Source: Paramuribaculum sp. (GTDB taxonomy: Bacteria > Bacteroidota > Bacteroidia > Bacteroidales > Muribaculaceae). From it: a stretch of DNA of 12,473 nucleotides. The translations under genes and the position numbers were made by a program. The notes beneath the pieces are model-generated. The model had not been told where the DNA came from, did not search any database, and saw only the letters and a list, made by a program, of their open reading frames with translations. Where the stretch lies: contig JAIDJZ010000052.1 of the NCBI GenBank assembly GCA_029051965.1, positions 1 to 12,473 on the forward strand. Direction: 5' to 3'. This document shows positions 1 through 7,396 of the stretch, in pieces (positions within the stretch are counted from its first letter, which is position 1; every line of letters starts with the position of its first letter).

Positions 1-444
1 GTGGTAAATGAAGTTTTCATAGATGTAACGGTCGACTGCTGCAAGTTTCTTTGATACGGATGCTGAGTTGGGCGCTCCGGATCCTATGTTGTAGGACAGA
101 CCCCCGAGAATCAGTGAATCAGCCCCAAAGTTACGGAAAACCGCGCAGTTTTTCAACAGGTCTTTGCGAAGAAGCGCGTCGGCTTCCGGTTCGGGGAGAG
201 CTTTGGTCCGGCTGAACTTCTCGCCGGGTAGAATGAGATGGCCGTAGCCGACCAGAGGCCAGTGGCGTGGCTGATGGAGGGTTTCATATTTCTTTATGAT
301 TCCGACGGCGACTTCGAATAGCGAGTCGGTTGCTGCCGGAGTGGCGTTTTCTGGCGCGGGTTCAGTGCCAGCGGCCGCGCCCATGTTGATGAACGCGCCG
401 ATGAGCAGCAGTGCTCCGCAGATTATGGCAAAGAGTTTTTTCAC
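1..444 (-). CDS. Secreted GH24-type (phage-like) lysozyme, 3' end missing
   Basis: This is a peptidoglycan muramidase of the T4-lysozyme-like fold, probably the endolysin or cell-wall hydrolase of the phage module. I read 148 codons from a GTG at 444; the frame is still open at the window edge. The first 25 residues (MKKLFAIICGALLLIGAF, then an Ala/Gly-rich end) form a signal peptide or a signal-arrest-release anchor, with a plausible cleavage after Ala25. The catalytic region follows: Glu54 in KKYE, then HWPLVGYGH at 61-69, which matches the E...G-x-GH signature of GH24. The Glu-to-GYGH spacing is shorter than in T4 lysozyme, and the T4 Asp20 and Thr26 equivalents are not obvious, as in a divergent branch of the family. 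Further family-like features are the DALLRKDL helix (89-96) and LSYNIGSG (116-123). GTG was chosen because no ATG lies upstream in frame after the TGA near 480 and because the signal peptide starts there. No holin is visible. The family call is firm; a role in phage lysis is inferred from context. Confidence 0.82.
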   Translation of the reverse strand, partial: MKKLFAIICGALLLIGAFINMGAAAGTEPAPENATPAATDSLFEVAVGIIKKYETLHQPRHWPLVGYGHLILPGEKFSRTKALPEPEADALLRKDLLKNCAVFRNFGADSLILGGLSYNIGSGAPNSASVSKKLAAVDRYIYENFIYH

Positions 445-521
445 AATTGTAGAGTCTGGTGAGGGTTGGGATTCGATTCAGAGTAAAAACATTGCAGCGG
501 GCTGAAGGTTCACGCGCTCTT

Positions 522-565
522 AGAGCCGGTTCCCCAGCATTAACAAATATTGGGGAACCGGCTCT
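522..565. terminator. Perfect 15-bp inverted repeat, possible terminator or RNA hairpin
   Basis: The arms AGAGCCGGTTCCCCA (522-536) and TGGGGAACCGGCTCT (551-565) are perfectly complementary and flank a 14-base AT-rich loop. On the minus strand the stem begins on the last base of the TAA stop of the 140-residue gene and lies 78 bases before the lysozyme start, so it divides the two genes. There is no T-run after the stem on either strand, so it is not a classical intrinsic terminator. It could instead be an attenuator, an RNA-stability hairpin or a protein-binding site. Confidence 0.6.
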
Positions 566-987
566 TAGATCCGAGAGGGAACAATGGTTGCCGGAGCTGA
601 CAGAAGACTTCGCAGAGCGGCGAGCGTCTCCGCCGCCTGAGAGGTGGCTGCCGAGGCTGTGCGGGAGCAGACTCCGGCGTAGGCGGTGGCTGCGATCCGT
701 GACGCGACGGTCTTTTCGATTAGCAGGCGCACCGTCGGGGCTGAGATTGTCGCCGGGATCTCCATTTCGAGGGTGAGGATTCCGACATCGTCGCCGGAAG
801 GGCTGACGGCTGCGCCTGTGGCTGCGGCAATGGCAGCGGCTTCCCCTTCGGCGAGGCATAAAAGTGCCTGGGTCTGGTCGCGGGTCAGCAGTGGCGGACG
901 GTCTGCGGACAGATGATGGCGCAGGGCGGTTTCGGCCAGCAGGGTGCTGACAATGGCTTCTGTTGAGATTGCGATTGATGTTTTCAT
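565..987 (-). CDS. Phage-module protein of unknown function, 140 aa
   Basis: I do not recognise a family with confidence. The protein is 140 residues, alanine-rich (including AAAIAAATGAA and TAYAGVCSRTASAATSQAAETLAAL), acidic in the middle (SGDDVGILTLEMEIP, a likely beta-strand pair) and helical at both ends, with no signal peptide or membrane segment. It starts 9 bases after the stop codon of the 159-residue gene and is preceded by CGAAGAA, so the two are almost certainly translated from one message. Its size and its place downstream of portal would suit a head-completion, neck or tail-terminator protein, but that rests on position alone. Its stop codon touches the 15-bp hairpin. Confidence 0.7.
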   Translation of the reverse strand: MKTSIAISTEAIVSTLLAETALRHHLSADRPPLLTRDQTQALLCLAEGEAAAIAAATGAAVSPSGDDVGILTLEMEIPATISAPTVRLLIEKTVASRIAATAYAGVCSRTASAATSQAAETLAALRSLLSAPATIVPSRI

Positions 988-996
988 TTCTTCGGG

Positions 997-1476
997 TCAG
1001 TTTTTCATGGTTTTGGATTCGGGACCGGATGAGGGGAGGGGAATGTGGCGGTGGTGGCGACGGTTGCGCTTTTGGCGGGCTTCGCGGCGCAGACGTCCGT
1101 AGAGAAATGCCGCGGCGGCGGGACGGATGTAGAAGCGCGGGGCATTGCCTTCGCAGAGCACAAGGGCCAGGGCTTCCGACTCGGTGATCCCTTTGCGGGC
1201 GATCAGCCGGTCGACACGGCGTCGCAGCTCATCGAATGCCGCTGTCGGACCGTCGTGGGTGGTTCTGTCGAGTCCGTTGCGCCGCAGATATGAGAGCCGG
1301 CGGCGTGCATAGGTGAAGGTGACGTAGAATTCCGGAGCGGGCGATTCGGCGGCAGCCTTCGCGATCTGCGCCGCCGTCAGAGGTCGGGTCGATTCGCTGA
1401 CGATGCGGCGGCAGATGCGGAGGAAGTCGCGGTCGCGACGGTTTTTCATAGTAATAGACTGTGTGTTGGCTGTCAT
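997..1476 (-). CDS. Small basic protein with internal duplication, unknown function, 159 aa
   Basis: No family is assigned. The protein is strongly basic, with Arg/Lys clusters near the N-terminus (KNRRDRD), in the middle (ELRRRVDR) and near the C-terminus (RREARQKRNRRHHRH), suggesting nucleic-acid contact. It has two similar halves: residues 32-64 carry a short helix followed by APEFYV and an Ala/Arg helix, and residues 96-130 carry an equivalent helix followed by APRFYI and an Ala-rich helix. Both repeats end in a leucine-rich stretch. The start at 1476 follows a TAACTTTG promoter box by about 50 bases; a second in-frame Met at codon 10 (1449) is possible. It lies 137 bases after portal and 9 bases before the 140-residue gene. 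It could be a packaging, head-completion or DNA-binding accessory protein. Confidence 0.72.
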   Translation of the reverse strand: MTANTQSITMKNRRDRDFLRICRRIVSESTRPLTAAQIAKAAAESPAPEFYVTFTYARRRLSYLRRNGLDRTTHDGPTAAFDELRRRVDRLIARKGITESEALALVLCEGNAPRFYIRPAAAAFLYGRLRREARQKRNRRHHRHIPLPSSGPESKTMKN

Positions 1477-1526
1477 GGTGTGTGATATCGGTTTATTAAG
1501 CGAAAGATTGTTGTGATGTGTGTTGG

Positions 1527-1534
1527 CAAAGTTA
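1527..1534 (-). promoter_or_regulatory. Bacteroidetes -7 promoter box before the 159-aa gene
   Basis: On the minus strand the sequence reads TAACTTTG followed by C, matching the Bacteroidetes primary sigma -7 consensus TAnnTTTG, about 50 bases upstream of the ATG at 1476. No clear TTTG -33 element lies 19-21 bases further upstream. The same octamer precedes the scaffold-position gene (5347-5354), which supports it as a real internal promoter driving the three distal genes. The 137-base gap after the portal gene otherwise shows no open frame or RNA gene. Confidence 0.5.
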
Positions 1535-1613
1535 CAATGAGGGCTGGGCCGTCAGTGATGACACGCTTGCTAATAAATGTTAAAGCGCGGGCGCTTGTTC
1601 GGAAGCGGTTGGG

Positions 1614-2978
1614 TTATGAGTTGACAATCAGTCGGTTTCTTGCAGCGCGAAATGAGTTGAAGCTGTCGAGAAGATCGAGGATAGCGATGCTTGAATTGCG
1701 CAGCTGGGCGTCGTAGAGCGCGGCGGAGGTGTGGTTGTTGGTAATATGACCCTGCAAAGCGCTGCTGACGCCTGAGATCTGGTTGAAAAGCTGCATCTGG
1801 AGATTGAGCAGCTGATAGGCGCCTGCGCACTCGCTGCTGCCGACCGTCTGACGGATTTCCCCTTTGCCGGGCACGTAGGGTATGACCGAGTTGGGGCGTG
1901 CCCACAGCTCGCCGAGCATTTCGAGGGTAAGGCCCGGAGGCAGGCCGTCGGAAGGGGCGAGAAGTGCGCCTTTGGCCGATACGCTCATTATGTGGTCGAT
2001 CAGTGTGATGAGCCGGTTGACTGTGCGCTGCTGGTCGATGATGTCCTCGACAAGCGAATGGACCTCTCCGTCGATCAGGGGGTAAAATTTGACCGCGAAG
2101 GGGTGGAGCGAGTGGGCGTATGGGGAATCGAATTCGTCGAGAATCATTCCGTCGGGGGCCATCATGCGACAGTGCCAGCGCAGAGTCGTGGAGGGTCGTG
2201 TGATGATCTCAGCCGGTGGGTTGCCGTCTGCAGGATGGCTGCTTCTGTTATCGGCGGAGGCAAGAAAGAAGCGGCCCGACGAGGGTTCGTGACACCGCAG
2301 GACCGACCGGCTCTCGAGAGTCCATAGCTCAATGACCCGGCATCTGTGGCTGCCGGCATCGAAAAAGGAGCGGCTGACGCTGTCGCCGAGCGGTCCGGCC
2401 GGCCCTTCGTGCCACGACGTATGGTAGGCCGCGGCTATCCGCGCTGCCCGACGGCCTCCCTGTGGGGCGAAGCGCATCAGCACTTCGCGCAGGCTCATCG
2501 AATGGAGCATTCCGACAAGCTCGATGTCGAGTCCGCGCGGATCGGTGAACCGGTTGATGAAAAACGAGTCGGGGCTGATATTGTCGACCCAGACCCCGTC
2601 GCCGGCAAGACGTCGCTCCGCCACTACGCGCTGGACCGCGCATCCCGAAATGAGAAATTCCTCGAGCATCCGGCAGTCGAGTTCGGTCAGAGCGTTGCGC
2701 GAAGCTGTCGCCTCGTCGGGCTCGGGGGTGACTGCCTGACGGTCGGGCGACGACAGGGAGTTGCGGAAGTTGCCGACCACCGATTTGACAAGCTGCCGGA
2801 TCAGATTGTTGGTGTGGGGGCGGAAGCCGGCTCTGAGAGCGGAGTCGTGTTCGCTCTCCCCGTCGGCGCCGGCATCGTTCCACTGGCGTCCGTAGGTATA
2901 GTCTTTATAGCGCCGGCGCCGGGCGCGCAGAGGTTCTCCTTCGCGCCACGCTTTAAGTGCGAGTTCGATATATTTCAT
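1614..2978 (-). CDS. Phage portal protein
   Basis: Portal proteins form the twelve-subunit ring at the capsid vertex through which DNA is packed and ejected. This 454-residue protein has the usual layout of a podovirus/P22-type portal. An N-terminal segment (ALKAWREGEPLRARRRRYKD, then YTYGRQWN at about 28-35) precedes a polar NNLIRQLVKSVVGNFRNS helix at 57-74. A central alpha/beta region contains DNISPDSFFINRFTDPRG. A late helical segment, EDIIDQQRTVNRLITLIDHI, is typical of the portal stem. Next come a hinge (GALLAPSDGLPPG) and a closing helical region rich in Asn/Gln (LLNLQMQLFNQISGVSSALQ). The length is at the short end for portals but the frame is uninterrupted. It begins 3 bases after the stop of the preceding gene, so translation is probably coupled. 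A large plus-strand open frame opposite it is only a GC-rich shadow. Confidence 0.82.
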   Translation of the reverse strand: MKYIELALKAWREGEPLRARRRRYKDYTYGRQWNDAGADGESEHDSALRAGFRPHTNNLIRQLVKSVVGNFRNSLSSPDRQAVTPEPDEATASRNALTELDCRMLEEFLISGCAVQRVVAERRLAGDGVWVDNISPDSFFINRFTDPRGLDIELVGMLHSMSLREVLMRFAPQGGRRAARIAAAYHTSWHEGPAGPLGDSVSRSFFDAGSHRCRVIELWTLESRSVLRCHEPSSGRFFLASADNRSSHPADGNPPAEIITRPSTTLRWHCRMMAPDGMILDEFDSPYAHSLHPFAVKFYPLIDGEVHSLVEDIIDQQRTVNRLITLIDHIMSVSAKGALLAPSDGLPPGLTLEMLGELWARPNSVIPYVPGKGEIRQTVGSSECAGAYQLLNLQMQLFNQISGVSSALQGHITNNHTSAALYDAQLRNSSIAILDLLDSFNSFRAARNRLIVNS

Positions 2979-2981
2979 TGG

Positions 2982-3536
2982 TCAGCAGATAAACAGGTTG
3001 GAATCCGCGACGCCCAGGCTGGCGAGCATCTGCGGGGTCAGATGATAGATGTCGTCGGAATCGGGCAGCATGACGGCCATTATCCGCGTTTTTCCTCCGT
3101 CGAGAGGTGGCTGGACCGTCAGTAGTCCGTCGCCGACGACAGCGACCGGACGGGCCCGGCCGGATCGGGCGAACGGGTTGCTCTGGGCAGCCGCGTCGGG
3201 GCTTGCGGGGTCGGTGACGATGAGTGCCGGACGTTCCCAGGAGTCGCAGTCGGCCGAGGCGACCCGCAGGCATCCGTCGGGCAGCCGTGCAGAACAGCTT
3301 CCGGGACACCTTTCGCTGAAAGTCAGTCGAGGCCCGATGTCGGTCAGGGGGAGATCGGAGAATGGTGCGGTATTCAGCAGGCCGACGTACCATGCGCGCA
3401 TCTGGAGCGTGAGGATGCGGTCGAGGTCGGGCCCGTCGGACCGGCTGACGGTGCAGTCGGTCCTCAGAGGCTCGAACCCTTTCGCGGTCTTCCACAACTC
3501 AAGCATGGAGTCGGCCGTGAGGGTGATTGGATTCAT
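2982..3536 (-). CDS. Phage-module protein between capsid and portal, unknown function, 184 aa
   Basis: I do not recognise this protein. I start it at the ATG at 3536 (MNPITLTADSMLELWKTA); an alternative TTG eight codons upstream (3560) lies closer to the capsid stop and adds nothing domain-like. The protein opens with an amphipathic helix (SMLELWKTAKGFEPLR), continues with a helix around DLDRILTLQMRAWYVGLLN, and then becomes strand- and loop-rich (RPVAVVGDGLLTVQPPLDGG, then IMAVMLPDSDDIYHL). It has four cysteines and no signal peptide or membrane span. It sits 45 bases after the capsid gene and 3 bases before portal, so it is very probably a virion or assembly protein, such as a neck or connector subunit. 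That role comes only from gene order. Confidence 0.72.
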   Translation of the reverse strand: MNPITLTADSMLELWKTAKGFEPLRTDCTVSRSDGPDLDRILTLQMRAWYVGLLNTAPFSDLPLTDIGPRLTFSERCPGSCSARLPDGCLRVASADCDSWERPALIVTDPASPDAAAQSNPFARSGRARPVAVVGDGLLTVQPPLDGGKTRIMAVMLPDSDDIYHLTPQMLASLGVADSNLFIC

Positions 3537-3581
3537 GATGGAAATAAAGGTTGTGAACAATCGGATGTGAGCGGATCTCCA

Positions 3582-4848
3582 TTATTCCGAAACGATGCGG
3601 AGGTGGGCTTTCGGATGGCGCAGGACAAGACAGCTTGCCTCGGTTGCCACAAGCGCGTCGGTGTTGCGCACGCCGGAGCTCTTCAGGTCGAGGTGTTCGA
3701 CACGGAAGGGGATGTGGGAGTACTTCGTCAGATACTGCGGATCGATGACCATTCCGTCATTTTCGTGGCCGCACTGATCGAAGACTTCGTTGTGGACAAC
3801 GCAGAGCACCCCGAATTTCGAGCGCAGCTCGGTGAAGTCGATGCCCCAGCGGGTCACGGTGTCGGAGGCGGAGATCACTTTCGTGTACTCCATATTGTTG
3901 AGGCGTTCGATCAGACCGGACCCTCCCATGAGGATTTTGCGGGGCGATCCGGCGCAGTCGCCGGTGAACGCTTTGCGCATGAGAGCCACGAGAGTCTCCG
4001 TCGAGATGGGCTCGTCGGTCAGGGCGAATTCCTCGCCGGCCTGATTCCAGATTCCTTTGGTGAAGAGCACCTCGTCGAAACGCCGCGGATCGGTCAGTCG
4101 GGCCTGAACGCCGAAAAGGAAACTCTTTTCCATTCCGAGGCGCATGTCCATGATCGCTACTTCCTCCTGGTCGGAGAGAGTCCATCCGACCTCTTTCGAT
4201 GAGAGCTTGGTCAGGATTGAATTTTCAACCTGGGCCTTGAAGATTTGGCAAAAATTGGTTGATTTGACGGGAAGTGCTTCAAACTGAGGTGTCTGGACGT
4301 CGAGTTCGCCTGCCGCGCGGCCCATTCTGACGAGTCGCTGGCCACTCTGGCCGAATGAGGCGGCTGCTTTCTGCTCGTCGGTCAGGTTGAGGGCAATCAC
4401 ATTCAGCGGATTGGAACTGCCTTTGTCGATGTCGACAACGTAGAGGATGACGGGTTGGCCGTCGACTCCGGTAGTGCCGTCGATCATTACAGTTTCGGTC
4501 ATCGCAATCAGGTCGGCGTTCTTGACCTTCAGCGAGTAGGTCTGATAGCCGCTGTAGTCACCGCCTGCAATCTTTGAGATCGCCGCCGTGGCTGGTGGTC
4601 GGTGCTTTGGCGTCGACCGAATAATAGTCGACAATCATTGATGAGGCGTGGCGCGCGCCGACCATTCGCGAGATCTGGTCGACAGGAGTGGCCATCGGGC
4701 GCACCTTGACGACACGGCTGTCGATCTCGTTGAGCAGAAGCGAGGGAGAACCTTCGCGGGCAGCGCCTGTGGTCAGAGGGCCGTCGATGACTTTGGGTGT
4801 GGTTTCGTCGGATGTGATGATTTTTGTGGTTTCGTCGGATTTGTACAT
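3582..4848 (-). pseudogene. Major capsid protein gene, interrupted by one frameshift
   Basis: Two overlapping frames together encode one protein of about 420 residues. The first frame starts at the ATG at 4848 and runs through SSMIVDYYSVDAKAPTT, then hits a stop at 4558. The second frame continues with AAISKIAGGDYSGYQTYSLK and runs to the stop at 3582. The second frame is offset by one base, and the break lies at about 4575-4605, in a GC-rich ACC/GGC stretch with no obvious slippery run. The joined product resembles the SU10-type phage major capsid family: an N-terminal arm with PLTTGAA and SRVVKVRPMATPVDQISRM; a NFCQIFKAQVENSILTKLS helix with EEVAIMDMRLGMEKSFLFG; and a C-terminal strand region with MVIDPQYLTKYSHIPFR. 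This is the shell subunit. It follows the scaffold-position gene and precedes an unknown gene and portal. The break may be a real inactivating mutation or a sequencing or assembly error; a programmed shift is less likely. The family call is moderately firm, the frameshift is seen directly. Confidence 0.8.
4798..4840. repeat. 27-bp-period direct repeat in the capsid N-terminus
   Basis: The 16-mer TGTGGTTTCGTCGGAT occurs at 4798-4813 and again at 4825-4840, a spacing of 27 bases or nine codons. In the capsid protein it gives two copies of SDETT within the first 18 residues (SDETTKIIT followed by SDETTPKVI). It is a local coding duplication in the presumably flexible N-terminal arm. Confidence 0.75.
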
Positions 4849-4923
4849 GTTCAGATTTGATTAAAGGTTAGAAAAAGAGATGATTGAAACGGTTTTCGTC
4901 GGTCAGGGCCGGCGGGACTGCGG

Positions 4924-5301
4924 TCAGTCCCAGACCCCTCGGGGGAGTTCCGACAGGAAGTTCTCGGCAAGCGAGCGGGCGGTCTCGGGGGTGTCGTGTC
5001 GGCGCAACGGATTTTCGAACAGCGCGGGGCGCGACATGAAGCTCTCGGCCATTTCGTTGCGGGCGCGCAGATATCCGCGCTGTTCGGCGTCGGCCACCAT
5101 CTGTGAGATCTCTTCCGGAGTCGGTCCGGAGGGCTGAGGCGTTTCCGGCAGCTGGGGCGTCTCCGGTTGCTGGGGCGTCTCCGGTTGCCGGGACTCCTGC
5201 GGCATCTGAGCGTCCGGTTCTTCAGGGATTTCGGGACTGACTGCTGATTCGGGAAGCTGGGAATCCGTAGTTGCAGAGGTTGGTTGAAGGTCTGTTTCCA
5301 T
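4924..5301 (-). CDS. Small acidic Pro/Gln-rich protein in the scaffold position, 125 aa
   Basis: This is a probable capsid-assembly scaffold or accessory protein, judged by position immediately upstream of the major capsid gene. I start at the ATG at 5301 (METDLQPTSATT). An upstream in-frame codon at 5349 would sit inside the promoter box and is rejected. The N-terminal half is low-complexity, rich in Pro, Glu, Gln and Thr, with hexapeptide repeats of the QPETPQ type. The C-terminal half is folded-looking: a helix PEEISQMVADAEQRGYLRARNE, then ESFMSRPALFENPLRR, then a closing stretch AENFLSELPRGVWD. A disordered N-terminus with a helical C-terminal capsid-binding part would suit a scaffold, although 125 residues is short for one. 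The stop is 75 bases before the capsid ATG. It is the first gene of the minus-strand unit. Confidence 0.7.
   Translation of the reverse strand: METDLQPTSATTDSQLPESAVSPEIPEEPDAQMPQESRQPETPQQPETPQLPETPQPSGPTPEEISQMVADAEQRGYLRARNEMAESFMSRPALFENPLRRHDTPETARSLAENFLSELPRGVWD
5135..5188. repeat. 18-bp tandem repeat, three units
   Basis: TGGGGCGTCTCCGGTTGC occurs twice head-to-tail (5153-5170 and 5171-5188) and is preceded by a diverged unit TGAGGCGTTTCCGGCAGC (5135-5152). On the minus strand each unit encodes a six-residue PETPQ-type repeat of the scaffold-position protein. Two identical units next to a diverged one suggest recent slippage expansion, so length may vary between strains. Confidence 0.85.
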
Positions 5302-5346: not shown

Positions 5347-5354
5347 CAAAGTTA
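5347..5354 (-). promoter_or_regulatory. -7 promoter box of the phage module
   Basis: The minus strand reads TAACTTTG followed by C here, fitting the Bacteroidetes -7 consensus TAnnTTTG, 45 bases upstream of the ATG at 5301. The -33 region has no TTTG; it is occupied instead by TCCGGA palindromes, so transcription may depend on, or be blocked by, a bound regulator. The identical octamer lies before the 159-residue gene of the same module. Confidence 0.55.
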
Positions 5355-5487: not shown

Positions 5488-5495
5488 TATCTTTG
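5488..5495 (+). promoter_or_regulatory. -7 promoter box of the Na+/phosphate cotransporter gene
   Basis: TATCTTTG followed by TG matches the Bacteroidetes -7 consensus TAnnTTTG and lies in an AT-rich patch. Transcription would start near 5500, leaving an untranslated leader of about 55 bases before the ATG at 5558. A poor -33 match (TTTC at 5462-5465) lies 22 bases upstream. Confidence 0.5.
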
Positions 5496-5557
5496 TGTGC
5501 GGAATCATTTTTTCAGTGTCTTCCGCCGAAATACATTCTTTGCATAACCCAATTACA

Positions 5558-7396
5558 ATGAGTTACAGCTTTTTAGATTTTCTTTGCCTGCTCGGATCAG
5601 TCGGACTGTTCCTCTATGGCATGAAAGTGATGAGCGAAGGCCTGCAGAAAGCGGCGGGCGACCGTCTTCGCAACATCCTCGGGGCAATGACCCGTAACCG
5701 ATTCACCGGAACTCTTACCGGATTTCTGATTACCGCATTGATTCAGAGTTCATCCGCATCGACGGTAATGGTAGTCAGCTTCGTCAATGCAGGTCTGATG
5801 ACCCTTGCCCAGTCAATGGCTGTGATCATGGGTGCGAACGTCGGAACGACATTTACAGCATGGATCATCTCTCTCTTCGGATTTAAAGTCAACATATCGG
5901 CCTTTGTGCTGCCGATGATCGGCATCGCGGTGCCCCTGCTCTTCTCCAAGAAAAGCCGAAACAAATCGATCGGCGAATTCTTTGTCGGGTTTGCATTCCT
6001 CTTCATGGGGCTCAATATGATCAGCACCTATGTGCCTGATCTCCAGAGTAACCCCGAGATGTTTGCCTTCCTTCAGCAATACACCAACATGGGCTTCGGC
6101 TCCGTTCTGATCTTCATGTTTGTCGGCCTTCTGGTGACAATGGTGATCCAGTCGTCGGCCGCAACATTCGCTATCACGCTGATCATGTGCAGCAAAGGGT
6201 GGATCGACTTCGATCTGTCGTGTGCGCTCGTGCTTGGCAGCAATATCGGAACAACCATCACTCCGATTCTCGCCTCGATGAGCGGAAATGTAGCCGCAAA
6301 GCGAACCGCAATGGGCCATCTGCTTTTCAATGTGCTCGGATGCGCATGGGTGCTGGTTGTCTTCTTCCCGTTTGTCCGGCTCAACGTCGGGATAACCGAA
6401 CGGCTCGGCCAGGGCAATCCTGAGACTCTTTCGGCTTATGTCAACAATATCCAGCAGACCGACCCCGAAGTCTATAACAATCTGTTCAACAACCTCCCCT
6501 CCGACCATCCGCGTTTCGGCGACATAACAGCAGCCCAGAAAAAAGTTGAGACGCTCCAGCAGAGCGTGTCGATCGGTCTGGCTGTTTTCCACACAGTCTT
6601 CAATCTCATCAACCTTGCGGTAATGATCTGGCTGACCGGACTCTATGTGAAGATCGTCATGAAGCTTGTCCCGGCTAAACACAAGGAAGACGAGGAATTC
6701 CAGCTCAAGTTTATCTCCGGCGGTCTGATGAATGCTGCCGAACTCAACATCGCTCAGGCAGAAAAGGAAATTGCTGTCTACGGCGAGCGTGTGGCGAGGA
6801 TGATCGGCATGGCAAAGACGCTTGTGCACACCGATACGGATTCGGAAGAATATGCTCACCTGCTGTCGCGTCTTGAGAAATATGAGGACATCTCCGACCG
6901 TATGGAAATCGAGATCGCCCACTATCTCAACCGATGCTCCGAAGGACGCCTGTCGAATGAAGGTAAGCTCCACATTGCCGCGATGCTGCGCATTGTCAGC
7001 GAAATCGAAAGCATCGCCGACTGCTGTCTCGGTGCAGGCAGGATTCTCGAACGAAAGAATCAGGCCCACGTCGAGTTTACCGACGCGATCTATACCAACA
7101 TCGACGCCATGTTCCATCTCGTCAAGGAAGCTATGGACGATATGCTCAAGCTTCTGCGCGATCCCGAACATGCGCGCGAGCCTGAAATCATTGTTTCCTA
7201 CAACAAGGAGCGCGAAATCAACAACTATCGCAACCAGCTGCGTGCCGGCAACATCGAGAACATCAACAACCACTCCTATCCATATCAGGCCGGCATCTAT
7301 TACATGGACATGATTTCAAACCTCGAAAAGACCGGCGACTACATCATCAACGTTGTCGATGCAATCAAAGAGCAGCTTAGGCGTCAGATTGCATGA
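5558..7396 (+). CDS. Na+/phosphate cotransporter with C-terminal PhoU-like domain (NptA/YjbB family)
   Basis: This inner-membrane protein couples phosphate movement to sodium. The 612-residue product has the two inverted Na/Pi-cotransporter repeats of the family. The first carries LIQSSSAST at about 61-69 with GANVGTT at 92-98; the second carries VIQSSAATF at about 197-204 with GSNIGTT at 227-233. QSS motifs line the substrate path in this family. Multiple hydrophobic spans fill residues 5-270, and another lies at about 360-380. The cytoplasmic tail from about residue 395 is helical and charged and resembles PhoU, with an ISDRMEIEIAHYLNR segment and an ending GDYIINVVDAIKEQL. The start at 5558 (MSYSFLDF) is preferred over 5495 because the upstream codons overlap the -7 box and are not membrane-like. 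In bacteria this family (YjbB in E. coli) is often linked to phosphate export or homeostasis; the direction here is not determined. It is transcribed away from the phage module. Confidence 0.92.
   Translation: MSYSFLDFLCLLGSVGLFLYGMKVMSEGLQKAAGDRLRNILGAMTRNRFTGTLTGFLITALIQSSSASTVMVVSFVNAGLMTLAQSMAVIMGANVGTTFTAWIISLFGFKVNISAFVLPMIGIAVPLLFSKKSRNKSIGEFFVGFAFLFMGLNMISTYVPDLQSNPEMFAFLQQYTNMGFGSVLIFMFVGLLVTMVIQSSAATFAITLIMCSKGWIDFDLSCALVLGSNIGTTITPILASMSGNVAAKRTAMGHLLFNVLGCAWVLVVFFPFVRLNVGITERLGQGNPETLSAYVNNIQQTDPEVYNNLFNNLPSDHPRFGDITAAQKKVETLQQSVSIGLAVFHTVFNLINLAVMIWLTGLYVKIVMKLVPAKHKEDEEFQLKFISGGLMNAAELNIAQAEKEIAVYGERVARMIGMAKTLVHTDTDSEEYAHLLSRLEKYEDISDRMEIEIAHYLNRCSEGRLSNEGKLHIAAMLRIVSEIESIADCCLGAGRILERKNQAHVEFTDAIYTNIDAMFHLVKEAMDDMLKLLRDPEHAREPEIIVSYNKEREINNYRNQLRAGNIENINNHSYPYQAGIYYMDMISNLEKTGDYIINVVDAIKEQLRRQIA

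Follow-up and report, generated by a model that had tools for sequence, protein, structure and literature searches.

The window, a stretch of 12,473 nt from Paramuribaculum sp. (assembly GCA_029051965.1, contig JAIDJZ010000052.1), carries a phage head module on its minus strand between positions 1 and 5301. We consider it probable that a short-tailed phage was domesticated and that this is its head operon, kept by most of the sampled Muribaculaceae and serving a DNA-packaging particle that resembles a gene transfer agent (GTA) and is older than the family itself. In order the module comprises a scaffold-position protein, a major capsid protein (MCP) of SU10 type, a protein of 192 aa (u192), a portal of P22 type, proteins of 159 and 140 aa (u159 and u140) and a lysozyme. 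A preliminary description of this DNA had identified a head module here, and this was borne out by family matches of the capsid (PF17236, E = 5.8e-44) and the portal (PF16510, E = 5e-19). It left three possibilities, i.e. the end of an ordinary prophage, a capsid-bearing satellite or a GTA-like locus. The last of these is supported: the genes occur throughout most of the family, are flanked by housekeeping genes, lie at dispersed loci, are inherited vertically under purifying selection and are accompanied by a large terminase subunit (TerL) encoded elsewhere in the genome. The window is an entire contig (C391) of a metagenome-assembled genome (MAG) of 442 contigs and 2.3 Mb that is 88% complete, so that this assembly has no sequence to the left of the module.

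Distribution, dispersal and inheritance

The family survey covered 297 Muribaculaceae genomes from 30 genera, 204 of them of high quality. The portal query was matched in 277 of the genomes (194 of those of high quality) and the TerL profile in 275 (also 194), tallies that include some prophage copies; the capsid profile was matched in 245 (168 of high quality). Each of the three was found in 29 of the 30 genera. TerL sequences with frames of ~700-830 aa (n = 10, put in the tree) group with prophages.

Across an order-wide sample of 247 genomes, portal, capsid and TerL occur together in 18, four of them Muribaculaceae and the others spread over seven further families (f20, f22, f28, f60, f68, f88 and f109). 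There are additional weak or partial matches to TerL in G458 and G535, and to the portal in G412 and G487. The sister families have full-length portals, and their genes are separated by tens of kb or sit on different contigs; the compact clusters of G315 and of one copy in G430 are probably prophages. We note that two sequences titled as other organisms, L075 (JAMPDC010000001.1, Staphylococcus sp.) and L053 (Bacteroides sp.), carry genes of Muribaculaceae type, and these public labels look wrong.

The genes are scattered in the genome. In Duncaniella muris and in G550 the capsid gene stands alone, with u192, portal, u159 and u140 some 20-23 kb away; in D. muris this portal operon sits between hemD and thiamine genes. 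G550 is a single contig of 2.63 Mb, on which the capsid is located at 832 kb, the portal at 854 kb and a tail nozzle gene with TerL at 1.157-1.161 Mb, so that the dispersed loci span 330 kb; a separate prophage is found at 2.07 Mb. The capsid and portal of another single-contig genome (G173) are 535 kb apart. Other genomes pair the genes differently. In genus g22 the genes for nozzle, scaffold, capsid, u192, portal, u159 and u140 are clustered, with TerL four genes further on; u159 and u140 adjoin TerL in G013, with capsid and portal on a different contig; and in the sister families the nozzle gene is directly beside the portal in four of six portal loci. These differing pairings tie the scattered genes into one set.

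The flanks of the module are housekeeping genes. Its divergent right-hand neighbour, at 5495-7396, belongs to the Na/Pi cotransporter family (PF02690, E = 1.4e-60), confirming the earlier assignment of nptA as a housekeeping neighbour. Comparison of the locus between related genomes, as had been proposed, shows the junction with nptA to be common to four, the window, L051, L052 and L053. In the nearest relative, the Paramuribaculum MAG L051, the capsid shows 93% identity and the module is likewise followed by nptA, a regulator, rnhB and porU (where nptA was named by family scan, and rnhB and porU carry the names given in the preliminary description). The end of a prophage had been suggested, yet the longer contigs of relatives have housekeeping genes on the left side. 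Beyond the lysozyme and a protein of 271-275 aa to which we assign no function, L052 continues with phosphoglucose isomerase (PGI), glycerol-3-phosphate dehydrogenase and a class II tRNA synthetase, and L053 with a nucleotidyl transferase and an SPFH/zinc-ribbon protein. The complete prophage with integrase that might have lain to the left is not seen in these two flanks, where no terminase, tail or integrase family was matched among the ten neighbours scanned (three of which match no family at all).

More generally, no integrase, recombinase, repressor or replication family and no immunity gene was found among the neighbours scanned, these being part of all the neighbours and including a few without any family; att sites were not searched for. 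Those scanned are of housekeeping types, including PGI, gpsA, hemD, thiF, nusA and infB. Those at L061 and L077 further include peptidase U32, ribonucleotide reductase, OmpA, FKBP, a protein of riboflavin-synthase type and cobalamin adenosyltransferase. A protein cluster of 11 open reading frames (ORFs; from 27 loci) adjoins the scaffold gene at other loci, and the one member scanned is a biotin/lipoate ligase. The base composition was said to resemble that of the host, and module and flank are indeed similar; the module is nevertheless somewhat higher in GC content, at 0.56-0.64 in 1-kb windows compared with 0.51-0.60 in the flank.

The trees of the unlinked genes indicate vertical inheritance, agreeing with each other more fully than with rpoB. 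For 27 genomes the portal and TerL trees have 16 of 24 splits in common; the portal tree shares 13 with that of rpoB and the TerL tree 11, against a maximum of 3 when names were shuffled. All seven multi-member genera form clades in both the portal and TerL trees, with weak support for g24 in the portal tree (0.384). The rpoB tree recovers only four of the seven as clades, and is therefore a modest yardstick. In the TerL tree 57 dispersed Muribaculaceae copies, together with two copies from genus g6, form a single clade with a support of 0.951. Six dispersed TerL sequences of sister families join this clade, apart from 14 prophage-type sequences and 14 from viral contigs, and this fits a single domestication event.

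The genes are under purifying selection. The dN/dS analysis of capsid and portal that had been suggested gave 0.028 (for the intact part of the capsid) and 0.111 between the genome of the window and its nearest relative, with 0.095 for TerL, 0.148 for u159, 0.225 for u192, 0.260 for u140 and 0.276 for the scaffold-position protein, all of which are approximate because dS is ~1 to 1.9. The flanking genes of the same pair gave 0.033 (nptA), 0.071 (rnhB) and 0.062 (porU). Values of 0.11-0.28 were obtained for a pair in g22.

Two genomes carry a compact prophage-like stretch of the same lineage in addition to the dispersed set, i.e. D. muris DSM 103720 on contig C1 (L266 and L267) and G550 (L270). 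Their prophage-like portals are full length, at 668 aa in D. muris and 677 aa in G550. These stretches also encode giant polyvalent proteins of 2479 and 4460 aa, that of D. muris matching a DarB-like antirestriction protein.

Head, packaging and tail proteins

The portal (1614-2978, minus strand, 454 aa) matches the P22_portal family with 68.7 bits (cut-off 26.1), covering positions 7-431 of the 594 in the profile. A sequence search of the PDB gave one weak match, to phage GP4 (E = 6.6e-4). The protein is shortened at its C-terminus. Complete phage-like portals from viral contigs (n = 38) have 637-686 aa, with 119-155 residues beyond the end of the match, whereas in the same comparison the Muribaculaceae portals have 0-20. 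In another count, 69 of the 71 portals from Muribaculaceae ended within 25 residues of the profile match; the remaining two, aligned in pieces, are only 437 and 425 aa long. Portals of sister families or prophages (n = 10) have 621-714 aa and 96-140 residues more. Among the family matches listed, portal frames are below 610 aa throughout. The missing part presumably corresponds to the crown and the end of the barrel in P22-like portals.

The MCP (3582-4848, minus strand) matches SU10_MCP with 151.2 bits (cut-off 24.1), and its PDB sequence match is to phage VP1. In the genome of the window its frame is broken between ~4634 and 4558, giving two overlapping ORFs (4848-4558 and 4634-3582), while in L051 it is intact with 422 aa; the change may be an error of the MAG or a recent loss in this strain. 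A capsid scan of named genomes found 27 relatives of 46-93% identity, including the type strains Paramuribaculum intestinale DSM 100749 (L061) and Duncaniella muris DSM 103720 (L077) with capsids of 421 and 398 aa, respectively, and in 15 of the 27 the portal is located downstream on the same stretch. Where the source databases give names, the capsid is called a DUF5309 protein and the portal a hypothetical or uncharacterized protein. An encapsulin-like compartment was considered and dropped. We observe by eye a hydrophobic N-terminal leader on capsids of phage-like contigs and of genus g22 (L148, L149, L013, L045) that is absent from eight aligned domesticated capsids.

Upstream of the MCP lies the scaffold-position protein (4924-5301, minus strand), acidic and ~125 aa long from the ATG at 5301; its role is suggested by its place in the order. 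Among the 27 capsid-relative loci it forms a single protein cluster of 12 ORFs. The protein u192 (2982-3560, minus strand), probably of the head or neck, is homologous to the gene preceding the portal in the phage-like contig L010. No trustworthy relative was found for it by PDB sequence search, and the profile of its cluster (A5, of which L010 and L013 provide members) matches further phage-like loci, including L045 (E = 1e-21), L047 and L020. The location of the portal after scaffold and capsid had been regarded as unusual. However, L010 likewise has the order scaffold, capsid, a 137-aa protein, u192 homologue and portal; since a phage-like relative shares the order, this argument for a satellite or island fails. 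A phi29-like order was also considered, and dropped.

The TerL of the window's genome is encoded on a separate contig (G000:C231), adjoining the end of a nozzle gene truncated by the contig end. The Pfam family Terminase_6N (PF03237) gave no match in this genome, and TerL was detected only using a profile built from phage-like relatives; a conclusion that terminase was absent would therefore have been wrong. TerL matches T4 gp17 (E = 3.5e-16). Of 58 sequences, 57 retain the residues at its ATPase and nuclease positions, and 56 the last two aspartates, the rest being gapped there.

The gene beside TerL, found near it in 15 of 16 loci, matches the tail nozzle of short-tailed phages in its predicted structure. 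The best 14 VIA rows and the best 13 Foldseek rows are phage tail chains, and the fold match spans most of the length and scores above unrelated propellers; a PDB sequence search gave no trustworthy relative. The muzzle of phicrAss001 is just one among several near-equal fold matches, and for this reason membership of the host set in the crAss-like phages was dropped.

The genes for u159 and u140 had been described as two small unknowns. Both are present, yet u140 (565-987, minus strand) is likely to be part of the tail, its predicted fold making it a probable head-to-tail adaptor. The protein u159 (997-1476, minus strand), which matches phrog_27246 (E = 1.2e-6), is a candidate for the small terminase subunit on the basis of position, its homologues adjoining TerL or sitting one gene away in the prophage-like clusters L241, L266 and L270. 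In the phage-like clusters L270, L245 and L010 the u159 homologue has a small membrane protein, rhomboid-like by eye, next to it or between it and TerL; no such protein was seen in the dispersed set.

Lysis genes and promoter elements

At the left end of the window is a phage lysozyme with a hydrophobic N-terminus (1-444, minus strand), truncated by the end of the contig. It scores 21.7 bits against Phage_lysozyme (PF00959), for which the cut-off is 22.3, and the complete copy in L053 scores 43.3; this is the probable endolysin of the module in this clade. Between u140 and the lysozyme (516-572) there is a near-perfect palindrome of 57 nt with a predicted hairpin stability of -35 kcal/mol. Some 50 copies occur across the same genome, several near the starts of contigs, so that it is probably a REP-like genome repeat that is not part of the system, and it may be a cause of assembly breaks.

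The sequence TAACTTTG is found upstream of the scaffold gene (5347-5354, minus strand) and again upstream of u159 (1527-1534, minus strand), as that of a second transcription unit. We take it, and its general form TAnnTTTG, to be a -7 box of Bacteroidota type. A possible TTG start codon at 5349 falls within the first of these boxes; the ATG at 5301 is taken as the start of the scaffold gene. TAnnTTTG is present upstream of scaffold genes at 9 of 14 loci (1.1 expected), a count in which the window scores as a miss because its box overlaps the TTG as called. The corresponding figures are 10 of 14 for u159 (0.7 expected) and 9 of 14 for nozzle genes (~1 expected). In a background count a shorter box was found at 9 of 158 other promoters. 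Position weight matrices for the promoters were uninformative, as all class pairs tested were significant.

A longer element, ATCGCAC-N21-23-TAnnTTTG, was searched in five genomes as an exact pattern with a reversed control, and for the link between promoters we depend on this search. There are 25 sites in D. muris, 30 in G550, 8 in G215, 3 in G549 and 1 in G122, and none with the control. In G550 each of the three head and tail operons has the element upstream; in D. muris it lies ahead of the operons for capsid and portal, and in G215 ahead of those for capsid and nozzle. The nozzle operon of D. muris has no exact site, but starts only 163 nt from the end of its contig. In D. muris, G550 and G215 the element also stands ahead of a gene of a holin family (PF05105, above the cut-off in one of the three) and an Amidase_2 endolysin; in L067 a homologue of this amidase is encoded within the head module, where its gene separates portal from u159. 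Other sites in G550 and D. muris precede assorted genes. In G550, 14 of 30 sites stand ahead of a member of a multi-copy family of small basic proteins of 150-197 aa with weak similarity to DUF6291 (L306-L363), as do 7 of 25 in D. muris; this family is possibly a key to regulation.

Function of the gene set and relation to known systems

We propose that the set is kept as separate operons, i.e. scaffold-capsid-u192-portal, u159-adaptor (with endolysin in some cases) and nozzle-TerL, joined in three genomes by a holin and an amidase that would be under the same promoter element as the head and tail operons. The encoded proteins would assemble a short-tailed head, into which the terminase might pack host DNA, because the distances between the genes would prevent packaging of the whole set in one piece and because neither replication nor integration genes were found among the neighbours scanned. 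Holin and endolysin could then lyse a few cells, freeing particles whose DNA would be taken up by neighbouring cells, as in a gene transfer agent. The set probably predates the split of the Muribaculaceae from several related families, where the portal stays full length. Phage-derived genes resident and fixed in a clade, dispersed loci, vertical inheritance with purifying selection, and conserved TerL catalytic residues are all in keeping with a GTA. With rather less confidence, we lean towards a fuller account in which an independent short-tailed GTA of Bacteroidota was acquired before the family arose and then scattered, its portal being shortened once in the Muribaculaceae, and is switched on together with holin, amidase and the small-protein family by one promoter element; it could then be a main and unrecognised route of gene exchange.

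A number of observations weigh against this interpretation. We use the label GTA-like since the formation of particles, host DNA inside them and its delivery, which define a GTA, are predictions here, and no receptor-binding or ejection protein was identified in the gene set. Portal matches are lacking from 20, TerL matches from 22 and capsid matches from 52 of the 297 genomes, and the prophage copies within the portal and TerL tallies reduce their weight. Three of four sampled g26 genomes (G026, G047 and G084) lack all three genes, two of them being 87-91% complete; this suggests loss from the lineage, which if so would make these genomes a useful natural control. The broken capsid frame of the window's genome belongs here, as do a portal split across two frames (L060) and in-frame stops in at least five capsid matches, at least two of the portal matches listed and a few for TerL (e.g. 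G544). The Muribaculaceae portals lack a C-terminal part normally present in phages. Unrelated propellers score close behind the phage matches of the nozzle, the adaptor match of u140 is inside the noise range for helical models, and no nozzle gene was seen beside the portal in the sister-family genomes G404 and G317. The dN/dS values are approximate, as noted. Finally, the longer promoter element was covered in five genomes only, two of which (G549 and G122) gave few sites, and 25 of the 30 sites in G550 precede genes other than those for head and tail, holin and amidase.

The family-wide loss of the portal C-terminus might indicate that the genes were domesticated for another purpose, such as a killing particle, a nanocompartment or interference that poisons assembly in related phages; DNA packaging would then be secondary or have been lost. 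Related prophages coexist with the set in D. muris and G550, so that interference is thinkable. Yet the ATPase and nuclease residues of TerL are conserved and TerL evolves as slowly as the portal, while a closed compartment would not need adaptor, nozzle, endolysin and holin; we regard such a use as unlikely. The broken frames and in-frame stops just described would be natural in decayed remnants of an ancient prophage, retained by chance or partly read as hypothetical genes. This is very improbable, and hard to hold given dN/dS values of 0.03-0.28 across the genes; moreover most of the listed matches have no in-frame stop despite deep divergence, the unlinked genes give congruent trees and -7 boxes are kept upstream of the operons.

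An ordinary prophage would be expected to vary between strains and to be inserted as one unit. In contrast, these genes occur in most of the family, have the same junction in four genomes of the clade and are unlinked to TerL. A capsid-bearing phage satellite depends on a helper phage for the virion parts that it lacks, whereas here the genome itself encodes a terminase, a nozzle and a probable adaptor, all from the one lineage. Real prophages of this lineage do encode homologues of the proteins, but the domesticated TerL sequences form a clade apart from those of the prophages, and the neighbours scanned (not every one, and a few matching no family) have no integrase, recombinase or repressor family. 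That the window holds a prophage end or a satellite moving between strains is thus the least credible of the explanations, and we favour a domesticated, GTA-like head operon.

Muribaculaceae are a major part of the mouse gut microbiota. If DNA-carrying particles are formed, a dominant gut family would have a built-in system of gene exchange, with an independent origin of a GTA in a phylum for which none was found described in the open PMC literature. The set is carried by cultured type strains (Duncaniella muris DSM 103720 and Paramuribaculum intestinale DSM 100749), so that the proposal is directly testable. Prophage, dispersed set with a full portal and dispersed set with a truncated one make up a natural series that may illustrate how a virus becomes a host trait.

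The gene set resembles phages SU10, P22, VP1, GP4 and phicrAss001 in capsid family, portal family, nozzle fold and probable adaptor fold. These are complete viruses, whereas the Muribaculaceae set has a shortened portal and no replication or integration gene found beside its genes. In the prophage of D. muris contig C1 a single stretch encodes homologues of nozzle, scaffold, capsid, u192, portal, u159, u140 and TerL. This prophage differs in being compact and in having a full-length portal of 668 aa and giant polyvalent proteins; alongside it, the same genome has the dispersed set as a further, separate copy.

Among the papers listed from the open-licence PMC literature (to which subscription papers and bioRxiv do not belong) there was no description of such a system for Muribaculaceae or Bacteroidales. 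The main cluster of the GTA of Rhodobacter capsulatus (RcGTA) is less scattered than the Muribaculaceae gene set. RcGTA is alike in that a bacterial clade has fixed head and packaging genes of phage origin, with vertical inheritance and a conserved TerL (PMC7947584). The Muribaculaceae set, for which packaging of host DNA is a proposal, belongs to another phylum and derives from another phage lineage of short-tail type, with SU10-like capsid, truncated P22-like portal and nozzle. A 2026 study of packaged bacterial DNA in the human gut attributes GTA activity to Oscillospiraceae and Ruminococcaceae and, for Bacteroides, describes lateral transduction; Muribaculaceae are not mentioned in its main text (PMC12946183). 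The same source describes FpGTA I of Faecalibacterium, like the present set a GTA candidate of gut bacteria with TerL, portal, scaffold and capsid, but one that is contained in a single operon of 10.5 kb and belongs to the Bacillota (PMC12946183).

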